In this document: one piece after another, positions 4,252-26,078 of the stretch | How the letters are laid out: each line of letters starts with the position of its first letter | How positions within the stretch are numbered: position 1 is the first letter of the stretch | Virus record (IMG/VR): IMGVR_UViG_3300046000_005294 | Location: 1 to 29,413 of that record | Direction: 5' to 3' (one strand) | DNA from: a virus | DNA length: 29,413 nt | The notes under the pieces: generated by a model | Database searches by the model: none | What the model saw: the letters and a program-made list of their open reading frames with translations, nothing else | What the model was told of the DNA's origin: nothing | Program-made: the position numbers and the translations under genes

Positions 4252-5655
4252 ATGACACCATACGAGTTCGTAAAAGAGCGGTTCCAGCTGCCATCTGAGC
4301 TCTACCCATTCCAGCAATCAGCTATGAATGAATTGGCCTTGCTTGACCGGGCCGGCTATTACCTCGACGTGGGTACAGGCAAGACCTACACAAGCATCAC
4401 GTCTTGTCTGTACAAGTTGGCCATGGGCGAGGTCAAGCACGTCATCTGCCTCATGCCACCGGTACTGATCACCAACTGGTCACGTAACCTGGCCAAGTAT
4501 GTAGGCATCACCCACACAGCCTACCGAGGCTCACCGGCAGCCAGAGCGAAGCTGGACCTGGACACGCACTTCATCCTGATGAGCTACCAGATTTTCAAGA
4601 AGGACTGGGACAAGCTGCATGAGCACTTCATCAACGAACCGGTGGTGGTGCTCTGCGACGAGGCCACGGCCATCAAGAATATCGGGTCAGACACTCACAA
4701 GAAGGTGCGTGACTTCTCAGTAGGCAACAGCCTGATGCTGCTCACCGGCACGCCGCTGAGCTCACCCATGGATGCCTATGCCTACGTTAAGCTGATCAGC
4801 CCCGGCGTCTATCGCAACCAGCTCCAGTTTGAGCGGGTGCATGTCGCCAAGTACGACTTCTTCGGCAAGCCCAAGGAATGGACAAACATTGAACTGCTCA
4901 GGGAAAACCTGGCGCTGAACAGTGTCCGGGTACTGAAAGAGGACGTGCTCAAGGACTTGCCGCCCATCACCTACACCGAGCTGTTCTATGACATGGAACC
5001 GAAGCACGTCAAACTGTATCAGGAGCTGGCCAACAACCAGCTCAAGGTGCTGGAGGACGGGTCGAAGATTGACCTGACGCAAGTCTCGGCACTCTTCAAT
5101 GCCTTGCAGCAGGTGCCGGCCAATGCCGAGCACTTCAGCGGGGGCACAGTCGATTCCACAATCTTCGAGCTGATCGATGAGGTCATGGAGGAGATCGGCG
5201 CGGAAGGCAAGCTGGTCATCTTCTCGAAGTATGTGATGACCAATCGCCGGCTGCTGGAGAAATGCGCCCAGTATGGGGTGCGTGCCTTGTTCAGTGACAT
5301 CAGCGCGAAGAAGCAGCAGGAGGCAATCGATGCATTTATCGAAGACCCGGCCTGCCGCATGATCGTGCTGCAGCACCAGTCAGGAGGCTTTGGTATTGAT
5401 GGCTTGCAGACTGTCTGCAGGGACGTCCTGTTCATCGAACTACCCCATACAGCCGCAGCATTCACTCAGGCTGTGGCCCGTGTTCATCGGGGTGGCCAGA
5501 AGGAGAACGTGAATTGTCGCGTAGCCATTGCAGAGAAGACCCTGCAGAGCTACATCTGGGAGACAGTTCAGGACAAAGACTCGCTGACCAACCTCTGTAT
5601 TCGGGGGCCGGCAGACCTTCGGGACATCGTTTTTGGGGCTTCTAGCCGAAAGTAG
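4252..5655 (+). CDS. superfamily 2 (SNF2-like) DNA helicase/ATPase, 467 aa
   Basis: This is an SF2 ATPase of the SNF2-like branch seen in many phages, expected to use ATP to translocate on or unwind DNA in replication or recombination. Motifs in order are a Q-like LYPFQQSA (residues 17-24), Walker A DVGTGKT (39-45), motif Ia region VICLMPPVLITNW (64-76), Walker B variant CDEAT (135-139, DEAT in place of DEAH), motif III LTGTP (164-168), and near the C-terminus IVLQHQSGGFGIDG (motif V) and QAVARVHRGGQ (motif VI, with the arginine finger). Both RecA-like lobes are complete, and it lacks the long insertions of eukaryotic SNF2 proteins. ATG 4252 follows the previous stop by one base. An in-frame upstream ATG (4180) would overlap the membrane-protein gene and is unlikely. 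Promoter-like sequence begins 6 bases after its stop. Confidence 0.9.
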   Translation: MTPYEFVKERFQLPSELYPFQQSAMNELALLDRAGYYLDVGTGKTYTSITSCLYKLAMGEVKHVICLMPPVLITNWSRNLAKYVGITHTAYRGSPAARAKLDLDTHFILMSYQIFKKDWDKLHEHFINEPVVVLCDEATAIKNIGSDTHKKVRDFSVGNSLMLLTGTPLSSPMDAYAYVKLISPGVYRNQLQFERVHVAKYDFFGKPKEWTNIELLRENLALNSVRVLKEDVLKDLPPITYTELFYDMEPKHVKLYQELANNQLKVLEDGSKIDLTQVSALFNALQQVPANAEHFSGGTVDSTIFELIDEVMEEIGAEGKLVIFSKYVMTNRRLLEKCAQYGVRALFSDISAKKQQEAIDAFIEDPACRMIVLQHQSGGFGIDGLQTVCRDVLFIELPHTAAAFTQAVARVHRGGQKENVNCRVAIAEKTLQSYIWETVQDKDSLTNLCIRGPADLRDIVFGASSRK

Positions 5656-5660
5656 AATTA

Positions 5661-5704
5661 CTGACATTTATTTACCAGTGTTCAGTATCGTCAAATAATG
5701 ACGA
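5661..5704 (+). promoter_or_regulatory. phage promoter/operator motif copy C (TGACA-N16-CAGTAT)
   Basis: TGACA (5662-5666) is followed after 16 bases by CAGTAT (5683-5688), matching the pattern also found at 9250, 11035 and 18758. It lies 6 bases after the helicase stop. Overlapping and following the -10-like box is a perfect palindrome TCGTCA-AATAA-TGACGA (5688-5704), well placed for an operator near the transcription start. This copy has the weakest match to a sigma-70 extended -10. Confidence 0.5.
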
Positions 5705-5713
5705 AATGTGTTG

Positions 5714-5765
5714 AACCAAAGTTGGTACTGGAGTAATCTGGCCGGTACCACTTTGGTTTATTTTT
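5714..5765 (+). terminator. strong intrinsic terminator ahead of the HNH gene
   Basis: AACCAAAGT (5714-5722) pairs with ACTTTGGTT (5750-5758), followed after a one-base bulge by GGTAC with GTACC and two further G-C pairs. This gives a stem of about 17 bp around a short loop (about 5732-5739). The stem is followed by TATTTTT (5759-5765), a classical Rho-independent terminator. It lies only about 20 bases downstream of the expected start site of promoter copy C and 16 bases before the next gene, so it could end helicase transcription, attenuate the downstream genes, or define a short RNA. Confidence 0.75.
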
Positions 5766-5780
5766 GTTGGAGCAGTGTTT

Positions 5781-6416
5781 ATGGGTAGGCACAGAATTGC
5801 TGTAGGTCAATCGTTTGGAAAGTGGGTGGTAAAGGCTAAGGAGCCGAGTAGTCCTTCAGGCTCACAGTGGTTATGCGAATGTGAATGCGGCACATCAAAA
5901 GTAGTCAGCGGGTGCAACCTAACTAGGGGCACATCTAAGTCTTGTGGTTGTTTAAGGGCAGAGTTGCTGACGATACATGGTGGTTCAAAACACGAGCTAT
6001 ACCCAATTTGGATAGGTATAAACGCTCGTTGTTATGACCCTACCCACATTCATTACAGTAGGTACGGTGGCCGAGGAATATCAGTTGACCCTAGCTGGTC
6101 AACATCATTTTCAGACTTTAAGGCAGATGTCCTTGCTGAGATAGGTCCAAGGATAAGTGGCACGACTTTAGACAGAGTGGATAATGAGCTTGGGTATGTT
6201 CCTGGCAACATAAGGTGGTCCACTGGTTTTGAACAGGCTACAAACAAGGTGGGTACAACAATGGTTGTATTTAATGGTGTTAATCAGTCTTTAGCTAGAC
6301 TATGTAAATCGCTAGGTACCCCTACTAATCTGGTACGTGGCCGTCTTAAGCAGGGTTGGGCAATAGAGAAGGCACTTACTACACCAAGTAATAGGGCAGG
6401 TAAAACCCATGAGTAA
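5781..6416 (+). CDS. HNH-type homing endonuclease-like protein, 211 aa
   Basis: This looks like a free-standing phage HNH homing endonuclease. The N-terminal part has a cysteine cluster (C32, C34, C36, C45, C55, C57: LCECECG and SKSCGC), probably a zinc-binding fold. The core has the motif order YPIWIGINARCYDP, then SRYGGRGI, then TLDRVDNELGYVPGNIRW, which is typical of the HNH proteins that carry a GGRGI segment and end in N-x-RW. The C-terminal 50 residues resemble a DNA-binding repeat (SLARLCKSLGTPTNLVRGRL). ATG 5781 has GGAG at 5769-5772; a GTG at 5775 is possible. The gene is visibly AT-richer than the neighbouring replication genes, and its end overlaps the primase start by 8 bases, as expected for a late insertion into the replication operon. 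Biological activity is not proven. Confidence 0.85.
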   Translation: MGRHRIAVGQSFGKWVVKAKEPSSPSGSQWLCECECGTSKVVSGCNLTRGTSKSCGCLRAELLTIHGGSKHELYPIWIGINARCYDPTHIHYSRYGGRGISVDPSWSTSFSDFKADVLAEIGPRISGTTLDRVDNELGYVPGNIRWSTGFEQATNKVGTTMVVFNGVNQSLARLCKSLGTPTNLVRGRLKQGWAIEKALTTPSNRAGKTHE

Positions 6417-9252
6417 TGACTTTTACTTTTACCATCAACAGGAGGCCAAATCCCCATGGACTTTAGCCCTCTCATCCCAACGTGCTCAGATCAACCGGGA
6501 CTTGAAACCTGAGCTGAATACAGTCCTCGACGTGAATACCTCAATGGATGAGGCCATGTCACTAGAGGACAAGTCCAAGGTTAAATACCGGGGCGATATG
6601 TACTTCGACTTCGACTGTGAAGACACAGAAGAGGTCATCTCGTACTTCAAAGAATTCTTGAGCATCCTTCAATCGAAGGGCGTTAATCTTCGTTCACTCC
6701 GCATCTATGCGTCAGGTGGCAAGGGCTTCCACATTGAAATGCCGGCCATCATCCTGATGGCTAAGGTGCCGCTTCATGGTATCGCCGCCCTGCCACTGAT
6801 CTACCGTGAGGTAGCCTACTCACTGTTCGTCAATACCCTGGACCTCCGCGTCTATTCACAGGGTAAAGGCCGGCAGTGGCGCCAGCCAAACATCAAGCGT
6901 GCCAACGGCAACTACAAGGTGCAGATCACCTTGGATGAGGCCTTTGAGATGACGGTTGAGGGCTATGCTGACGTGATCAGCCGCCCTCGCCCAGTCTTCC
7001 CGGTTGAGGATGCGGTGTTCAACTCTGAAATCGCCCTGCTCTATGCCAAGGCACGGGACAAGGTCGATAAAGGCTTGGCGACACGCCGCAAGAAGAAGCC
7101 GGGTACCAATGACCTGAAGCGCTTCAATGGCCAGTGGCCTGAGACCCTGAAGACTATCCTCAACGGTGTCGGCCTGAAGCCAGACGTGGGCTGGAACTAC
7201 ATCGTCGTGCAGCTGGCAACGGCTGCCGTCGATCTGGGCAAGACTGAAGACCAGCTGATCGAAGACGCCAAGGGCATCCTCGAGACGTACCAAGGTGACT
7301 CAAGCCGCTACGGTTCCGCCAAGAAGCGGGAGCGTGAGCTGCGGGACAAACACCGGTACTTCGCTGAGAACCCCTGCTACGACTACAGCATCGGCGGCAT
7401 CCTATCGATGGTTGATAAGGAAACGCAGGCGGCGACTGATCTGACACTGGGCGAGTTCGTTGCTGATGTAGTGGTCGAAGGTGAGGAGGTTGATGAAGAA
7501 GACGAGGGCGACGAGCCGACAACACAGGTTCGGGTCAATCGTAATGGCCTCTGGTCTCGGGGTGAGCAAGGCTGGAAGCGCATCAGCGACTTCGGCTTTG
7601 CCAACGCTACCTTGCTGAGGCTGCCACAGCCAGCAAACAAGATCATTGGCTACGACATTGACGGGTACATCAAGGGTGTGGGCAAGGGTCGAATTACCGT
7701 GGCCATGTCTGACCTTGTTACCAAATCAACCCTCCATAATCTGCTGCTCCGCGCAGCAAATGCATCGTTCAAAGGAACAGACATGGATGCCGCACACATC
7801 GTAGATTACCTACGAGAGAAAGTTGAACACAAATCCAGGGTCACTTACGTGACCCAGGTCGAGGGCATCGATACTATCCTGCCCCCGGATGCAAAGAACC
7901 CTGAAGAAGTGGATATCATCTGGAGCTCACCTACTGGTGTGATCACCACCGGTACCACGCAATACACCTTCAAGTCTGGCGTGACCGGTGAAGCTACCTA
8001 CAACTCTGACCTGTGGGGTGCTCAAGCATTAGGGCTTGAGGATGCACAGATGATCGAAGACCTGATGACGGTCAATACGCCGCAGAACCTTGCCAGAATC
8101 CTTGGCTGGTACTCAGCGACGTTCCTCTGCCCCCTCATGCGTCTCTTCTATCGCCAGTTCCCGCTCCTCCAGATTTACGGCGGCGCCTCTGCCGGTAAGT
8201 CGAAGACAGTAGCCCTGATGGCTCACATCCACTACCACCTGCACACCCCTCGCATCACGGCAGCAGCTCAATTCACACCGTTTGCCTTGGTCGCGGCGGC
8301 AGCAGCCTCCAACTCGATACCGATGTATCTGGAAGAGTGCCGGCCACGTTACCTTACCCACGGCAAGTGGGAAGGCGTACTGAACGTCCTCAAATCCAGC
8401 TATGACGGGCAAGCGATTGCTCGTGGTGGGCTCAGCGCCAACAAGGGTGAAGGCCCGGTGGTCACCCAGACCCGTTGCACGGCGCCTATCGTCTATGTGG
8501 CCGAGGAGAAGAACAGCGAGACTGCGGTGCAGGAGCGCTCAATCAGCGTCTGCCTGTCAGCGATGGATCGCTATGGCCGGGACAAGCAGTATGACCGCTT
8601 GCTGGCTGACGTGAGCCACCTTGGCCGGCTGGGCAAGTCCTTAGCATTGAACACTCTGTCTCTCGACATTCCAAAGTTCCGCAGCGAGATGAACGGCTTC
8701 ATTGCTGACATCAAGGGCAGCATGACTGATGAGGAGCGTGCCGGTAAGGATCGCCCGATCTTCAACCTTGCAGCTGTCCTGATGGGCTTGCGCTTCATGA
8801 AGGCTACTGTTGGCCAGGTCTTTGGTACGAAGTTTGACCACCACTTTGACCTGATGTCAGACGCTGTACGAGACAACGTGATTGAGTTCGTGCCACACAA
8901 TATGTCGGAATCCTCACGGGTTCTCGACACGATGGCTCAGCTCACCAAGGTTCTCGATGTTCAGTTCAAGATGGAATATGGCCGGGAATACACAGTGGCA
9001 AACGATGGCACCACAGTGGATATCAAGCTCAAACCAGCCTACGCCAAGTACATGAAATACCAGCGGAGCCTTGGCTCTGTGCCGTTGTATGACTCGGATC
9101 AAGCCTTTATCGCAGCAATGGTGCGCTACGGTGGGGTGACATCCAAAGCATGCGTTGATAACGATCGGTTGTTCGGTGGCCCCACTGAGCCAGTCTATCG
9201 CTTCAGCGTTTCGTTCATGGAGAAGGAGCAGGTCGAAAGCTTCAAACCATGA
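6409..9252 (+). CDS. primase-helicase: AEP-type primase fused to P-loop helicase, 947 aa
   Basis: This large replicative protein makes primers and probably drives the fork. The N-terminal region carries archaeo-eukaryotic primase (AEP/prim-pol) signatures: YFDFDC with D67 and D69 as metal ligands, SGGKGFHIE (102-110) with the catalytic histidine, and DLRVYSQGKGRQWRQPN (145-161). A basic linker (RRKKKPG) and a very acidic patch at about residues 350-368 (EGEEVDEEDEGDE) separate the domains. The C-terminal half has Walker A GGASAGKS (591-598) and a Walker B-like IPMYLEEC about 50 residues later, then an arginine-containing C-terminal motor part. This is the layout of phage and plasmid primase-helicases, where the motor is SF3- or DUF927-like; which of these I cannot decide. 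Its TGA stop coincides with the -35-like element of the next promoter. Confidence 0.85.
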   Translation: MSNDFYFYHQQEAKSPWTLALSSQRAQINRDLKPELNTVLDVNTSMDEAMSLEDKSKVKYRGDMYFDFDCEDTEEVISYFKEFLSILQSKGVNLRSLRIYASGGKGFHIEMPAIILMAKVPLHGIAALPLIYREVAYSLFVNTLDLRVYSQGKGRQWRQPNIKRANGNYKVQITLDEAFEMTVEGYADVISRPRPVFPVEDAVFNSEIALLYAKARDKVDKGLATRRKKKPGTNDLKRFNGQWPETLKTILNGVGLKPDVGWNYIVVQLATAAVDLGKTEDQLIEDAKGILETYQGDSSRYGSAKKRERELRDKHRYFAENPCYDYSIGGILSMVDKETQAATDLTLGEFVADVVVEGEEVDEEDEGDEPTTQVRVNRNGLWSRGEQGWKRISDFGFANATLLRLPQPANKIIGYDIDGYIKGVGKGRITVAMSDLVTKSTLHNLLLRAANASFKGTDMDAAHIVDYLREKVEHKSRVTYVTQVEGIDTILPPDAKNPEEVDIIWSSPTGVITTGTTQYTFKSGVTGEATYNSDLWGAQALGLEDAQMIEDLMTVNTPQNLARILGWYSATFLCPLMRLFYRQFPLLQIYGGASAGKSKTVALMAHIHYHLHTPRITAAAQFTPFALVAAAAASNSIPMYLEECRPRYLTHGKWEGVLNVLKSSYDGQAIARGGLSANKGEGPVVTQTRCTAPIVYVAEEKNSETAVQERSISVCLSAMDRYGRDKQYDRLLADVSHLGRLGKSLALNTLSLDIPKFRSEMNGFIADIKGSMTDEERAGKDRPIFNLAAVLMGLRFMKATVGQVFGTKFDHHFDLMSDAVRDNVIEFVPHNMSESSRVLDTMAQLTKVLDVQFKMEYGREYTVANDGTTVDIKLKPAYAKYMKYQRSLGSVPLYDSDQAFIAAMVRYGGVTSKACVDNDRLFGGPTEPVYRFSVSFMEKEQVESFKP

Positions 9253-9276
9253 CAAATTATTTGCAGTTGTCAGTAT
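9250..9276 (+). promoter_or_regulatory. phage promoter/operator motif copy A (TGACA-N16-CAGTAT)
   Basis: TGACA (9250-9254) overlaps the stop codon of the primase-helicase and is followed after 16 bases by CAGTAT (9271-9276), preceded by TGT as in an extended -10. The block AGTTGTCAGTAT is identical to that in copy B at 11051-11062. TGACAA (9250-9255) and TTGTCA (9267-9272) also form an inverted repeat, and GCAGTT/AACTGC flank the -10-like box, both consistent with a repressor or activator site. Confidence 0.6.
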
Positions 9277-9285
9277 AGAAACTGC

Positions 9286-9314
9286 TTGACCTAATCAGAC
9301 AGGGTGTCTAATAT
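9286..9314 (+). promoter_or_regulatory. sigma-70-type promoter
   Basis: TTGACC (9286-9291) and TAATAT (9309-9314) are separated by exactly 17 bases, close to the sigma-70 consensus, with an expected start site near 9321. It lies just downstream of promoter motif copy A and about 50 bases before the RBS AAGGA and ATG 9373. A tandem-promoter arrangement suggests high or two-stage expression of the following gene. Confidence 0.7.
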
Positions 9315-9372: not shown

Positions 9373-10140
9373 ATGGCCCTCAAAAACCAACCAGAAATGA
9401 CCCAAGCCGCCGCTACCGCTGGCTTTGAAACCGAAGCTGAAACCGCTGGTGTCGCAACCAAGGTTGAAGCCCCGGAAGCCGCTGTTGCCGCCGCAGGTGT
9501 CGCCGCTTCTACCGCCATCGCCAAGGCTTCTGCCGGCGCTGTCTCTACTCAGGTTCGCTCCAAGCTCGTGATCGCTTTCAGTGGTCACAAGGATGTGTTC
9601 GATACCGCCACCGTCTCCGCTCTCTCCATGGCTACACCCCGTATTACCGGTGAGCAAGGTTCTCTGAAGAAGAACCGTACTGTGAAGCTGGGCACCTCAA
9701 TGCGTCTGGAAGTCATCAGCTGGAATCACCGCTGGGCTCTGGGTTGCGGCGAACAGACGATGAACGACGAGATGAAGCAGCTGTTCCGCGTCTCCTACGA
9801 CAACAAGACTGTCGATGGCGAAGGCTGCAGCATTGAGGACTACATCAATAGCCTCAAGGCTCAGGGTTACGAGAAGGCCAAGGTCAGCCCGTACTGTGAC
9901 CTGTTCGGCTACATCACCTGGACCAAGGACGGTGGCGACATCGCTCCTGATGACCGCGAGTTGGCCCTTGTTCAGCTCTCCTCAACCTCACTGGGTAACT
10001 TCACAGCCTTCTGCGTTTCACGCGGCTTGCTTGAATCCCGTGGCACTGTCCAGCCGAGTGAGATGATCGAGATCACTGCCGAGGACAACACCAAGGGCTC
10101 CATGTCTTACACCAACATGAGCTTCAAGGCAGTCAAGTAA
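9373..10140 (+). CDS. putative abundant replication protein (possible ssDNA-binding protein), 255 aa
   Basis: This 255-residue protein has an Ala/Glu/Thr/Val-rich low-complexity N-terminus (about residues 10-56, AAATAGFETEAETAGVATK) and a folded remainder with beta-type segments (KLVIAFSGHKDVFD, TSMRLEVISWNHRW, FGYITWTKDGGD) and an acidic C-terminal third. No family is recognised with certainty. Its place between primase-helicase and exonuclease/polymerase genes, the strong tandem promoter and the absence of any other SSB-like gene make a single-stranded DNA-binding or replication accessory role plausible; this is inference from context. ATG 9373 has AAGGATA upstream. A GTG at 9304 in the same frame lies inside the promoter -10 and is rejected. 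The highly structured region 10141-10339 follows. Confidence 0.75.
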   Translation: MALKNQPEMTQAAATAGFETEAETAGVATKVEAPEAAVAAAGVAASTAIAKASAGAVSTQVRSKLVIAFSGHKDVFDTATVSALSMATPRITGEQGSLKKNRTVKLGTSMRLEVISWNHRWALGCGEQTMNDEMKQLFRVSYDNKTVDGEGCSIEDYINSLKAQGYEKAKVSPYCDLFGYITWTKDGGDIAPDDRELALVQLSSTSLGNFTAFCVSRGLLESRGTVQPSEMIEITAEDNTKGSMSYTNMSFKAVK

Positions 10141-10150
10141 TAGACAATCC

Positions 10151-10182
10151 GGCCACACCAGCCCACAAGGTTGGCTGTGGTC
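10151..10182 (+). terminator. hairpin after 10140, possible weak terminator
   Basis: GGCCACA (10151-10157) pairs with TGTGGTC (10176-10182, one G-U), and after a three-base bulge GCC pairs with GGC (10161-10163/10173-10175). The hairpin begins 10 bases after the stop of the upstream gene. No U-run follows, so it may stabilise the 3' end or act as a partial terminator rather than an efficient intrinsic one. Confidence 0.35.
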
Positions 10183-10186
10183 GGAG

Positions 10187-10314
10187 TGTTTAGAGGGTGG
10201 CTCTGGTGCTGTAACGGCGTATCAGTCTGGCTAAGCAGACAAGGTGGCTTGCTAGTTCGGAATTCCCCACCTGATACAAGGGCCCGAGGCCCTGCCAGAC
10301 CCACGCTCTAAACA
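10187..10314 (+). ncRNA. long-stem multibranched RNA element (candidate)
   Basis: This 128-base intergenic block has a long closing stem. Bases 10187-10206 pair with 10295-10314 over 20 positions, with only two mismatches (10196/10305 and 10201/10300). Inside it, GTATCAG (10219-10225) pairs with CTGATAC (10271-10277) and encloses two hairpins, TCTG/CAGA (10226-10229/10236-10239) and GTGG/CCAC (10244-10247/10267-10270). A separate hairpin AGGGCC-CGA-GGCCCT lies at 10279-10293. The result is two nested three-way junctions with little unpaired sequence, and no open reading frame of interest. It lies between the stop at 10140 and the RBS at 10330-10335. I recognise no known RNA family; a structured leader, processed sRNA or transcription-control element are the options. 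Confidence 0.5.
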
Positions 10315-10339
10315 TAAGACCAACATACAAGGAGTTCAA

Positions 10340-11026
10340 ATGAGAAGTTACTTCGTTGCTGACGTAGAAACCACTGGCGTCCGCCCCACCGACAAGATCG
10401 TTGAGCTCTGCTTCATCGAGATCAATGACAGCTTTGAGCTGCTGAGCCAGGGCGAAAGCCTGATCGATCCTGAAATCCCGATCCCGTCTGGCGCCTCAGC
10501 CGTGCATGGCATTACCAATCGTCGCGTTGAAGATGAGCCGACCATTGAGCAGTACATGGATATGAAGAGCAACCCGCTCATGACCACCCACCCGGCAGTC
10601 CTGATCGCCCACAATGCTGCGTTCGACTTCCGTTATCTCGGACCTTGGATGCAGGATGGCTCTGACACCCTGTGCACGCTGCGTCTGGCCAAGAAGATTT
10701 ATCCCGGCCTCGACAGCTACAAGCTGCAGGCTTTGAAATACAGCCTTGACCTGCCTGATGTTGAGGGCGATGCCCACCGGGCCGGCGCTGACGTTGAGAT
10801 GCTGCTGAACCTTGTATCGCACATGGCCATCTCCACTGGCCTGGACCTGCAGGGGTTGCTTGAGCTGAGCAAGGCACCGCTGACCATCGAGAAGATGGCC
10901 TTCGGCAAGCACAAGGACAAGCCCCTGAAGGATGTACCGCTTGATTACATTCAGTGGTACATGAAGCAGGACCAGACCGACGCCGACCTCGTTGCTTCAT
11001 TCAAGAAGCTTCACCCAAGTCTTTAA
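10340..11026 (+). CDS. DnaQ-like DEDDh 3'-5' exonuclease with DUF3820-like C-terminus, 228 aa
   Basis: This is an exonuclease of the DnaQ/epsilon family, which removes nucleotides from 3' ends. Exo I is FVADVETTG (D8, E10), Exo II is HNAAFDFRYL (D96), and Exo III has GDAHRAGADVEML (H146, D151), so all DEDDh residues are present. After residue 183 comes MAFGKHKDKPLKDVPLDYIQ, which matches the DUF3820 pattern (M-x-F-G-K-x-K-G-x-x-L-x-D-x-P) often fused to or next to exonucleases. AAGGAG at 10330-10335 fixes the start. Given that the Pol I-like gene (13356) carries a Glu in place of one proofreading Asp, this separate exonuclease might support proofreading or recombination. It follows the structured element at 10187-10314. 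Confidence 0.9.
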   Translation: MRSYFVADVETTGVRPTDKIVELCFIEINDSFELLSQGESLIDPEIPIPSGASAVHGITNRRVEDEPTIEQYMDMKSNPLMTTHPAVLIAHNAAFDFRYLGPWMQDGSDTLCTLRLAKKIYPGLDSYKLQALKYSLDLPDVEGDAHRAGADVEMLLNLVSHMAISTGLDLQGLLELSKAPLTIEKMAFGKHKDKPLKDVPLDYIQWYMKQDQTDADLVASFKKLHPSL

Positions 11027-11034
11027 TCAAATCC

Positions 11035-11062
11035 TGACAATTTTGAGGGAAGTTGTCAGTAT
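11035..11062 (+). promoter_or_regulatory. phage promoter/operator motif copy B (TGACA-N17-CAGTAT)
   Basis: TGACA (11035-11039) is followed after 17 bases by CAGTAT (11057-11062), preceded by TGT as in an extended -10. It lies 8 bases after the exonuclease stop. TGACAA/TTGTCA form an inverted repeat (11035-11040/11053-11058), and GAGGGA/TCCCTC flank the -10-like box. The 12-base 3' portion is identical to copy A. Confidence 0.6.
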
Positions 11063-11321: not shown

Positions 11322-11340
11322 TACGGCGCTAAGCTGAAAG

Positions 11341-11370
11341 AGAAAGCCTCGCTGATGCGGGGCTTTCTTT
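11341..11370 (+). terminator. intrinsic terminator
   Basis: AGAAAGCCTCGC (11341-11352) pairs with GCGGGGCTTTCT (11357-11368) with one G-U pair, closing a TGAT loop. The stem ends in TTTCTTTC, a partly interrupted U-run. It follows the 73-residue gene and precedes the next gene by about 28 bases. Some read-through is required if no other promoter serves 11398-18754. Confidence 0.75.
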
Positions 11371-11397
11371 CGTACCTACAATAAAAAGAGAAGAATA

Positions 11398-12273
11398 ATG
11401 GCCTCACTGGAAACGGTTAACATCCTGATGAACAGGGTGCACAGGGCATTAACGTCAGCCAAAAAGAAGACTGGTGCCTGCAAGTACGCATCTGCAACCC
11501 TGCAGATTCCTGGCCTTGCTACCACAAAGGTAGTGGAAGGGTTTGACATCCTGGACATCATCGTTCCTGATGCATTCACAGCTGAGGAAGACAAGGCCCA
11601 GGCCCTGACTGACTCACTAGCCTACATCTGCTACGACACGATTGACTCACCCACAAAGCAGGTTCTGGTCGATCTCTATGGCCGGCTGGTGGTTGAGTTC
11701 ATGCTACTGAGCACGACGACTGAGCAGCGGCTTGCACGCTTGCTGTGGTCACTGGGCAAGGGCTTTGAGAAAGAGGTTGGTGAAAACACCCTCGTGATCA
11801 AGTCACCGCTTGGTGAGTATGGTGTGCGGGATGGACTCCTTGTCGGCGGCGCCTACGCCGGCTACGCCCAAGCAATTGATACCAGCCTTGTGCTGGAGAA
11901 GGAAAGGGTACTGATGACACGGTCAAAGTACCTAGTTGAAGCACGCACCATCCTTGAAGGTCGCCAAGACCCTCAAGCCTACTGGTTGTTCTGTGCCTTG
12001 TATGCAAGGTCTGAGTGGGATCACCGGGTGATTATCAAATCACTCATGATGCTCAGGCCAAACATGAGCCATATAAACCGGCAGGCTATCCTCGACAAAA
12101 TCATGACATCACCTGACCCCTACGCCACGCTTTACCGGACGATGGTGCCAGCCTGCATGCTCTACACAGACTTTGTCATCCTGTTCGGTAACCCATACAA
12201 CCGAGGAAACACAAGACCCAGCTCACGCTTGAAACTGTGTAACAAAGTGCAAGACCTCCCATTCTTTTACTGA
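11398..12273 (+). CDS. hypothetical protein, 291 aa
   Basis: This is a 291-residue protein I do not recognise. It is mainly alpha-helical, with several hydrophobic helices (DLYGRLVVEFMLLSTTTEQR, PQAYWLFCALYARSEW) and a glycine-rich centre (GLLVGGAYAGYAQ, about residues 142-154). No P-loop, nuclease or zinc motif is visible. The C-terminal part carries cysteines (ACMLYTDFVILF, LKLCNKV) without a clear pairing. AAAAAGAGAAG upstream is an acceptable RBS. It opens the gene group that contains the dNMP kinase, polymerase and ligase, so a replication-linked role is possible, but nothing in the sequence shows it. Confidence 0.75.
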   Translation: MASLETVNILMNRVHRALTSAKKKTGACKYASATLQIPGLATTKVVEGFDILDIIVPDAFTAEEDKAQALTDSLAYICYDTIDSPTKQVLVDLYGRLVVEFMLLSTTTEQRLARLLWSLGKGFEKEVGENTLVIKSPLGEYGVRDGLLVGGAYAGYAQAIDTSLVLEKERVLMTRSKYLVEARTILEGRQDPQAYWLFCALYARSEWDHRVIIKSLMMLRPNMSHINRQAILDKIMTSPDPYATLYRTMVPACMLYTDFVILFGNPYNRGNTRPSSRLKLCNKVQDLPFFY

Positions 12274-12283
12274 GAAGAACAAT

Positions 12284-12817
12284 ATGAAAAAACTGATCGG
12301 CATAGCCGGCAAAGCAAGAAGTGGTAAAGACACCGTTGCCAAGTACCTCTGGGAGCGTCATGCCTTCACCCGTATCGCCTTCGCAGACCCACTGAAGCTG
12401 GCAGCTCAGCAGATGTTCGGCCTGACGGATGAGGCAGCCTTTGGAGATGAGTTCAAGGAGACTGTGATGCCCTACTGGGACAAGTCACCTCGCCAAATCT
12501 TCCAGCTGCTGGGCACCGAGTGCGTCAAGCCATTCTTTGGTGACGACATCTGGATCAAACGACTCAAGCTGACCTACAGCGTGATGTCTGAGACCGATGA
12601 TGTGATCATCCCTGATGTCCGCTTCAACCCTGAAGCTGAGTGGATTCGCAGTATCGGTGGCCGCATCATCCACCTGCACCGAGGCGCCGCGCCAGTGGTC
12701 AATCACCACGTCTCCGAGGCTGGCATTCAGCTGGTCGAGGGTGACATCTGGCTCGACAACAATGGCACGCTTGATGACCTTGCCTCAATGATTGACACCA
12801 TCGTAGAGGCCCTATGA
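12284..12817 (+). CDS. deoxynucleoside monophosphate kinase, 177 aa
   Basis: This is a P-loop kinase of the phage dNMP kinase type (T4 gp1-like family), expected to phosphorylate dNMPs to dNDPs for phage DNA synthesis. The Walker A motif GKARSGKDT is at residues 9-17. It is followed by FADPLKLAAQQMFGL and SPRQIFQLLGTECVKPFFGDDIW, the substrate-lid segment found in this family. VIIPDVRFNPEAEWI resembles the strand carrying the second acidic motif. The length fits the family's usual 170-240 residues. It starts 11 bases after the previous stop, and its TGA overlaps the next ATG (12814). It works together with the dCTP deaminase and thymidylate synthase encoded further downstream. Confidence 0.85.
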   Translation: MKKLIGIAGKARSGKDTVAKYLWERHAFTRIAFADPLKLAAQQMFGLTDEAAFGDEFKETVMPYWDKSPRQIFQLLGTECVKPFFGDDIWIKRLKLTYSVMSETDDVIIPDVRFNPEAEWIRSIGGRIIHLHRGAAPVVNHHVSEAGIQLVEGDIWLDNNGTLDDLASMIDTIVEAL

Positions 12818-13062
12818 AGTGCAGCGACCCAATTGATCAAGCCAGTCAAACGACTGAACTGCACAATCGGGTAGCCCTTGAGGCTCACCGCCTCAAGGCT
12901 GCACCTCAGCAGGTTCCTTTGCCCGATGGTTCCTGGCCCACCACAGACTGTGCAGATTGTGGTGGCCCTATCGAATCAGTACGGCTGGCAGCTGGCCGTA
13001 TTCGCTGTGTAGGGTGCCAGACAGCGCTGGAGAAAGAAGAGTCTGGATATGCAAAACGCTAA
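12814..13062 (+). CDS. TraR/DksA-type C4 zinc-finger protein, 82 aa
   Basis: This 82-residue protein ends in the TraR/DksA zinc finger: C46-A-D-C49 then, after 15 residues, C65-V-G-C68, within TDCADCGGPIESVRLAAGRI, very like DksA's C-x-x-C-G-x-P-I...R-C-x-x-C. TraR/DksA proteins bind in the RNA polymerase secondary channel and shift host transcription. The N-terminal helix here is short (about 30 residues), as in TraR and phage homologues, so regulation of host transcription is plausible. The ATG overlaps the kinase stop by four bases, and its 3' end overlaps the next gene by 14 bases. Confidence 0.8.
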   Translation: MKCSDPIDQASQTTELHNRVALEAHRLKAAPQQVPLPDGSWPTTDCADCGGPIESVRLAAGRIRCVGCQTALEKEESGYAKR

Positions 13063-25237: not shown

Positions 25238-25432
25238 GGTGCAATTCCTGGTGCAGTTAAGTTGACTCTCAGTGTAACTTAAACTTTTTACACTTTGTTA
25301 AACTGATGTAAACACAGGCTTTACGTGACTCAGTACCCTACCAGTAGATGTAACAAGGGCACCTTACGGTGCCCTTGCAAAGGCCCAGTTAGTGGGCCTT
25401 TTGATTGATTATGGTGCAGTTTTGGTGCAATT
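25237..25432. other. noncoding region upstream of int with four TGGTGCARTT repeats, candidate attP region
   Basis: Four copies of TGGTGCA(A/G)TT occur as two direct pairs, at 25237-25246 and 25249-25258 (12-base spacing) and at 25412-25421 and 25423-25432 (11-base spacing). They flank about 150 noncoding bases next to the integrase start. Paired short direct repeats on each side of a core are what integrase arm-binding sites look like in lambda-type attP regions. The interval also holds two terminator hairpins and AT-rich sequence with near-repeats of TTACAC/GTGTAAA. No tRNA-gene segment that would mark the core is seen. The alternative is that the repeats bind a regulator of int. Confidence 0.4.
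25354..25401. terminator. two adjacent terminator hairpins between tail genes and integrase
   Basis: The first hairpin, CAAGGGCACC/GGTGCCCTTG (25354-25363/25368-25377), has a loop that reads GTAA on the minus strand, a stable tetraloop type, with only TT after it. The second, AAAGGCCCA/TGGGCCTTT (25379-25387/25393-25401), is followed on the plus strand by TTGATTGATT and on the minus strand by a short TTTG. Together they would stop leftward tail transcripts before int and rightward transcripts reading out past int. Directionality is not certain. Confidence 0.65.
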
Positions 25433-26078
25433 AGACATCAGCAGTTACTCTGACCACGTTTGTACCATCTGAATAGACTATTGCGCGCTTGCCTGCCCCT
25501 ACGGTAATGCCTGTACCAGTTGGACCTATAAACACAAGTCCAAAGCCACCTGTCGTGCCATTGAACACTGTCCATTGCTGTACAGCCAGCGGAACAACTA
25601 TGTTCCTAGCTACTGACAGTGTTCCAGTGAATTCCAGTATATGGTTACGAGCCTCTGCCATGGTCAAGGTTGTGTTGGCATCAGTCATCGCTTTGGCTAA
25701 CTTACCAGTGTATGGGGTTAGCTGTAGGCGGTAGTCTGTGTAACTAGTAATGGTTGCAGCCCCTGCTACAACTGTATAGAGGGGAATGCTACCGGCTGTA
25801 AAGCCTGTCGTATTCTTACTAACAACACCTGCACGAGTAGTTTCGATATAGTTAGTTGAGGAGGCAGTCAAGGCTATGGCACTGTTTGCTACCTGGGTCA
25901 TCACACCATCTATCAGGATGTTCCCACCGTAGTAACCCCAAGTTAGGCCACTGGTTGTCGATTGCCGACGACCAAACGTAGCTGATGCTGAGACTGCATC
26001 AAACATAGCGTTTGCTGTGATCTCTTTGGAAGATTGACTCTGTGATATCAGGTCAAGATTTGTTGTGCTATTAGCCAT
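25431..26078 (-). CDS. short tail-fibre-like protein, 215 aa
   Basis: This is a 215-residue Ser/Thr/Ala/Gly-rich protein with repetitive beta-type sequence, placed directly after the tail-tip gene. The N-terminal part (SQSQSSKEITANAMFDAVSA) resembles the start of phage fibre and minor tail proteins with a helical attachment segment. The C-terminal end (TGITVGAGKRAIVYSDGTNV) is a pattern common to small phage receptor-binding or fibre tip domains. It probably forms or attaches to the tail tip and may contact the host surface. It begins 2 bases after the tail-tip stop, with a weak GAGGT RBS. No catalytic residues are visible, and a chaperone-type role cannot be excluded. Confidence 0.7.
   Translation of the reverse strand: MANSTTNLDLISQSQSSKEITANAMFDAVSASATFGRRQSTTSGLTWGYYGGNILIDGVMTQVANSAIALTASSTNYIETTRAGVVSKNTTGFTAGSIPLYTVVAGAATITSYTDYRLQLTPYTGKLAKAMTDANTTLTMAEARNHILEFTGTLSVARNIVVPLAVQQWTVFNGTTGGFGLVFIGPTGTGITVGAGKRAIVYSDGTNVVRVTADV

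Follow-up and report, generated by a model that had tools for sequence, protein, structure and literature searches.

What occupies the 199-nt intergenic gap between the stop codon of an SSB-like gene (10140) and the start of an exonuclease gene (10340) in this uncultured phage? The window, by which we mean the whole stretch of DNA that was analysed, is a 29,413-base IMG/VR virus record carrying genes for a helicase (phrog_62), a primase-like protein (phrog_16345), the exonuclease (phrog_192) and a family A DNA polymerase. An initial annotation had placed one large structured RNA in this gap. We confirm that the structure is there, well above chance. The region 10186-10316 is probably a structured RNA; the reading that we favour, with about even chances of being correct, is a stable phage sRNA that would be cut from the SSB-exonuclease transcript and would putatively act in trans. 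The relevant features, all on the plus strand, are the following.

9286-9314, plus strand: sigma-70-like promoter TTGACC-17-TAATAT upstream of the SSB-like gene (consensus match only)
9373-10140, plus strand: SSB-like gene, 255 aa (the 'abundant protein'), with a disordered N-terminus and a beta-rich core
10148-10185, plus strand: hairpin 3' of the SSB-like stop codon, 16 bp with one bulge, -26.8 kcal/mol
10186-10316, plus strand: multi-branched structured element, the candidate RNA, about 131 nt, from the fold, the window scan and the pairing probabilities
10186-10207, plus strand: 5' arm of the outer helix, partner 10294-10315; 20 pairs, 2 mismatches
10208-10218, plus strand: small 4-bp hairpin in the outer four-way junction, from the fold
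10219-10277, plus strand: inner domain, in which the stem 10219-10223/10273-10277 closes a three-way junction with hairpins 10225-10240 and 10242-10272
10279-10293, plus strand: 6-bp GC hairpin, AGGGCC-CGA-GGCCCU, from the fold
10294-10315, plus strand: 3' arm of the outer helix, partner 10186-10207
10329-10334, plus strand: AAGGAG, the exonuclease-gene Shine-Dalgarno sequence, which lies outside the structured element
10340-11026, plus strand: DnaQ/ExoX-like exonuclease gene (phrog_192, PF00929)

The 255-aa protein has no family match, and a search against phages and plasmids found no match either. Its predicted core weakly matches the gp32 core of T4 and RB69 (Foldseek probability 0.95-0.96, E 9e-3, TM about 0.3), and this structural likeness suggests that the protein may be SSB-like. 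Homologues with 40-51% identity are encoded by the related contigs L002, L008, L038 and L044.

Fold and architecture of the intergenic element

The whole gap (10141-10339) folds at -91.0 kcal/mol, with an MFE structure close to the centroid (RNAfold). In the comparison with shuffled sequences that the initial annotation had proposed, none of 200 dinucleotide shuffles reached so low an energy (z -5.8). The element 10186-10316 alone folds at -63.1 kcal/mol (z -5.7 to -6.1), and in a scan of 2928 plus-strand windows of 131 nt (step 10) it ranked first in fold excess (z -6.1), a rank that depends on a pre-screen on energy corrected for dinucleotide content, shuffle z-scores having been computed for the best 70 pre-screened windows only. 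A coarser scan (130 nt, step 50) did not place it first because the exact borders were missed.

The architecture is largely as the initial annotation had drawn it. The 20-position outer stem with two mismatches (10187-10206 with 10295-10314) is exact, with 18 of 20 positions paired (90% complementary), although the helix extends slightly further, to 10186-10207 with 10294-10315; its mismatches are G.G (10196/10305) and C.C (10201/10300), and its pairing probability is 0.97-1.0 in three differing flanking contexts. The separate GC hairpin is present at 10279-10293. The arms of the inner stem, described as seven perfect base pairs (10219-10225 with 10271-10277), are indeed 100% complementary, but just five of the seven pairs are firm. 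Of the nested junctions, both taken to be three-way, the inner one is so, whereas the outer one is four-way and holds the hairpin 10208-10218, the inner stem and the GC hairpin. The hairpin noted further upstream at 10151-10182 exists with a true span of 10148-10185, and the gap, which had been treated as one structured region, contains a large structured element as proposed and also, as a separate thing, this hairpin; the hairpin belongs to the family and the element to this lineage.

In keeping with the view that the stretch holds no plausible protein gene, the sole plus-strand ORF is a 46-aa TTG frame. On the plus strand the gap folds at -91.0 kcal/mol (z -5.7 in this comparison) versus -74.4 kcal/mol on the minus strand (z -1.8); for the element the difference is smaller, at -63.1 (z -5.7) versus -54.7 kcal/mol (z -3.8). 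This bias may be taken as moderate evidence for a plus-strand RNA, tempered by the presence of only three G-U pairs in the element. The element has neither a U-tract terminator nor an obvious promoter of its own.

Other stretches of the window also fold strongly. The second most structured of the plus strand (12766-12960, z about -5.8) spans the overlap between a kinase-like gene (ending at 12817) and an 82-aa gene (starting at 12814), and is possibly a translational-coupling structure. Further examples lie at 5626-5776, 11326-11466 and 25336-25476, and a typical terminator can be seen by eye near 11344-11371 (AAAGCCTCGCTGATGCGGGGCTTTCTTT).

The post-SSB hairpin and the variable slot in relatives

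Relatives were taken from IMG/VR scans and include many contigs; a scan of bacterial genomes yielded distant polymerases only. The gene order helicase, primase, SSB-like, exonuclease, polymerase is kept among the IMG/VR relatives, and the closest by polymerase are L002, L007 and L008 (55-61%), of which the L007 contig stops before the region. Hairpins no more than about 40 nt from the SSB-like stop codon are common: over 34 loci, the 55 nt after this stop gave a mean z of -3.0 in the shuffle test, with 24 of the 34 below -2, and the hairpin of the window is the strongest of all those tested. The same test detected none in L038, L002, L050 and L124. Several relatives have U-tracts at this hairpin. 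That of the window occupies the same place as the terminator hairpins of relatives such as L016, L031, L048 and L067, but it is followed by GUGUUUAG, which is not a full U-tract, the terminator scan called no plus-strand terminator at 10148-10185, and the big element is added downstream. Because such a hairpin is common in relatives, 10148-10185 is best read as a family feature, a terminator or mRNA 3' end that is separate from the big RNA. Its occurrence in most relatives suggests termination and read-through, or 3'-end control, upstream of the slot that follows.

What does this slot hold elsewhere? In most relatives it is empty, a gap of 35-70 nt with the hairpin. In L002 it contains an HNH-like ORF (by eye), a tRNA-Thr(TGT) and a tRNA-Arg(TCT), and in L042 a U-tract terminator and a tRNA-Arg(TCT); these are the only tRNAs in the two contigs. 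Extra ORFs are found there in L004, L008, L010, L040, L047, L051 and others. The gaps of L044 (297 nt, z -3.9) and L038 (255 nt, z -2.6) are folded and contain neither a tRNA nor an evident gene; their sequences fold equally well or better as the minus strand and are not recognisably related to the element of the window. The multi-branched element is lineage-specific and lies in a variable slot behind the post-SSB hairpin.

Three details of the slot in relatives deserve mention in their own right. In L002 the HNH-like ORF (5811-6314, by eye) directly follows the SSB-like gene, at a point that lacks the usual hairpin, and adjoins the two tRNA genes. In L008 (4157-4686) a 120-aa ORF lies between direct repeats (AGAGCCGGAACCGTAACCGGCACCAACACCCA...), as if it had been inserted into the slot with duplication of the border. 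A hairpin of the form GCYGG...CGTAACCRGC is common to L044 (5875-5906) and L008 (4198-4226), with one compensated stem pair (T-A versus C-G) and a local alignment p of 0.04; it is not clearly seen in the window, and is possibly a small conserved RNA element of the slot.

Homologues of the element itself were sought in several ways. Against Rfam 15 (4227 families, including GOLLD, ROOL, tmRNA and known sRNAs), the cmsearch that the initial annotation had proposed produced no hit in the window that reached the gathering cut-off; at a relaxed threshold CLRN1-AS1 alone appeared, at chance level (E 2). That the initial annotation recognised no known family is therefore borne out for Rfam, tRNA and tmRNA models. 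When the gap was used as a blastn query, neither phages nor plasmids nor E. coli genomes gave a match. R1, a covariance model with limited reach that was built from the element's one sequence and may miss a diverged relative, recovered from 41 sources and 14 whole records only the element, the reverse strand of the element and a single chance match (L013, E 5). Local alignments of the window's gap with the gaps of L002, L008, L038, L042 and L044 never beat shuffles. A hexamer, TCTGGC, which by eye is common to the gaps of the window, L044 and L038, was dropped in the light of these non-significant alignments. With no homologue in any collection searched, there is no sign of conservation for the element.

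Origin and possible role of the element

How might such an element be expressed, and what might it do? The initial annotation had named an sRNA, a cis-acting leader and a host-factor binding RNA as candidates, and of these we favour the first with about even chances. We infer that it is transcribed, processed, stable and active in trans. Transcription of the candidate RNA would start at the promoter of the SSB-like gene and read through hairpin 10148-10185. The TTGACC-17-TAATAT match is suggestive of this promoter through its placement just upstream of the gene, one promoter-type consensus match being found where 1.0 is expected by chance. Host RNases would then cut the SSB-exonuclease transcript at the base of the 20-bp helix (an RNase III-type cut) and in the single-stranded flanks. 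Since its ends would be closed, the RNA would be stable and, we propose, would accumulate in step with SSB during replication. Its target, in trans, would probably be an RNA or a protein of the host or of the phage.

This sRNA reading is favoured, indirectly, by the first rank in fold excess, by a defined fold that is unaffected by context, by the better folding of the plus strand and by the lack of an ORF. It is also favoured by a slot that holds tRNAs in L002 and L042 and folded non-tRNA sequence in L044 and L038, by the post-SSB hairpin of most relatives and, by analogy, by known abundant phage RNAs near tRNAs, which may serve as precedents. tRNAs are the best-known processed stable RNAs. 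Against it, a strong fold of a single sequence does not prove that an RNA is functional, no homologue was found, the L044 and L038 sequences are not recognisably related to it and fold on either strand, and the element has no U-tract terminator of its own. The main rival, which we consider possible though clearly less probable, is a cis-acting intercistronic element that yields no free RNA with a job of its own. Its big helix would serve for RNase III-type processing, would block 3'-5' exonucleases or would do both, so that the abundant SSB message would be separated from the exonuclease message and their levels set differently. The location inside a probable SSB-exonuclease transcription unit fits this rival, as does the position of the exonuclease Shine-Dalgarno sequence outside the structure, where AAGGAG (10329-10334) is unpaired in the gap-only fold and pairs elsewhere only when flanking coding sequence is included. 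In addition, the hairpin is common here in the family, and differential expression across the junction has therefore probably been selected. However, a single simple hairpin within a gap of 35-70 nt suffices for most relatives, and with hairpin 10148-10185 already in place an elaborate four-way junction is not needed.

Two further readings are less likely than either an sRNA or a cis-acting element. It is improbable that the near-palindrome works at the DNA level, either by forming a DNA hairpin, such as might serve as a replication signal, or as a small mobile element with the terminal inverted repeats TGTTTAGAG...CTCTAAACA. The element is lineage-specific, has 20-bp inverted arms and lies among replication genes, and the slot accepts insertions in relatives (the HNH-like gene in L002 and other ORFs); yet its interior is also built of firmly paired stems, the plus strand folds better than the minus strand, and of the marks of a mobile element only the inverted arms were found: inspection by eye revealed no obvious target-site duplication at either end, the window has no second copy, and phages, plasmids and E. 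coli genomes contained no match. It is more improbable still, to the point of being very unlikely, that the element is a remnant or exotic form of the slot tRNA genes. It occupies the same position as the tRNAs of L002 and L042, one loop contains a T-arm-like stretch (GTTCGGAATTCC), and a short, non-significant alignment to the L042 tRNA was obtained (p 0.33). Nevertheless, the tRNA model RF00005 did not match the element even at E up to 10, and ARAGORN, with its thresholds lowered as far as 85%, reported no bacterial tRNA (at 80%, shuffles score too). No tRNA or tmRNA was detected in the window gap, with lowered thresholds too, and the same tRNA tests found the tRNAs in the L002 and L042 slots, which served as positive controls. 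Moreover, the best fold of the window is not what one would expect of a gene in decay.

Comparable phage RNAs and other signals

If the element is a processed sRNA, the nearest parallels would be small intergenic phage RNAs of unknown function. Phage PAK_P3 has two small (about 100 bp) RNAs that are strongly expressed late in infection, of which sRNA2 lies between tRNA genes, and the band C and D RNAs of T4, described in the 1970s, still have no assigned function (PMC4933390). The location of sRNA2 recalls that of the element in a slot that holds tRNAs in relatives. However, the PAK_P3 and T4 RNAs are proven by expression, whereas the element is known from sequence alone and is likened to them by kind and position; unlike them, it lies downstream of an SSB-like gene. 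ROOL and GOLLD are likewise highly structured RNAs of phages and prophages, of unknown function, that are often found near phage tRNAs (PMC12286853). They resemble the element in their high degree of structure, but are far larger (many GOLLD RNAs exceed 800 nt) and conserved across many phages, whereas the element has no Rfam match. The tRNA-Arg(TCT) and tRNA-Thr(TGT) of the L002 and L042 slots resemble it in position, as structured RNAs downstream of an SSB-like gene, and differ in that the element has no cloverleaf and no tRNA model match.

We group the element with uncharacterised structured phage RNAs, not in a new category. A more ambitious proposal, that it represents a new class of small multi-branched phage RNAs that replace tRNA genes in a post-SSB 'stable-RNA slot' and, while the phage replicates, target the host's translation or RNA-processing machinery in trans, seems to us unlikely. 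A defined post-SSB slot, which two relatives fill with tRNAs and others with non-tRNA sequence that folds, is nonetheless a place in which to seek phage RNAs; it could be used across many phages of the group, and the element offers a compact 131-nt candidate for testing.

The surroundings of the two genes contain one more pair of signals. Near-identical palindromes, TGACAA-N11/12-TTGTCA, occur at 9250-9272, before the promoter of the SSB-like gene, and at 11035-11058, before a 73-aa gene downstream of the exonuclease gene (0.02 expected by chance), and from their sequence and placement both look like putative operators of one phage regulator.
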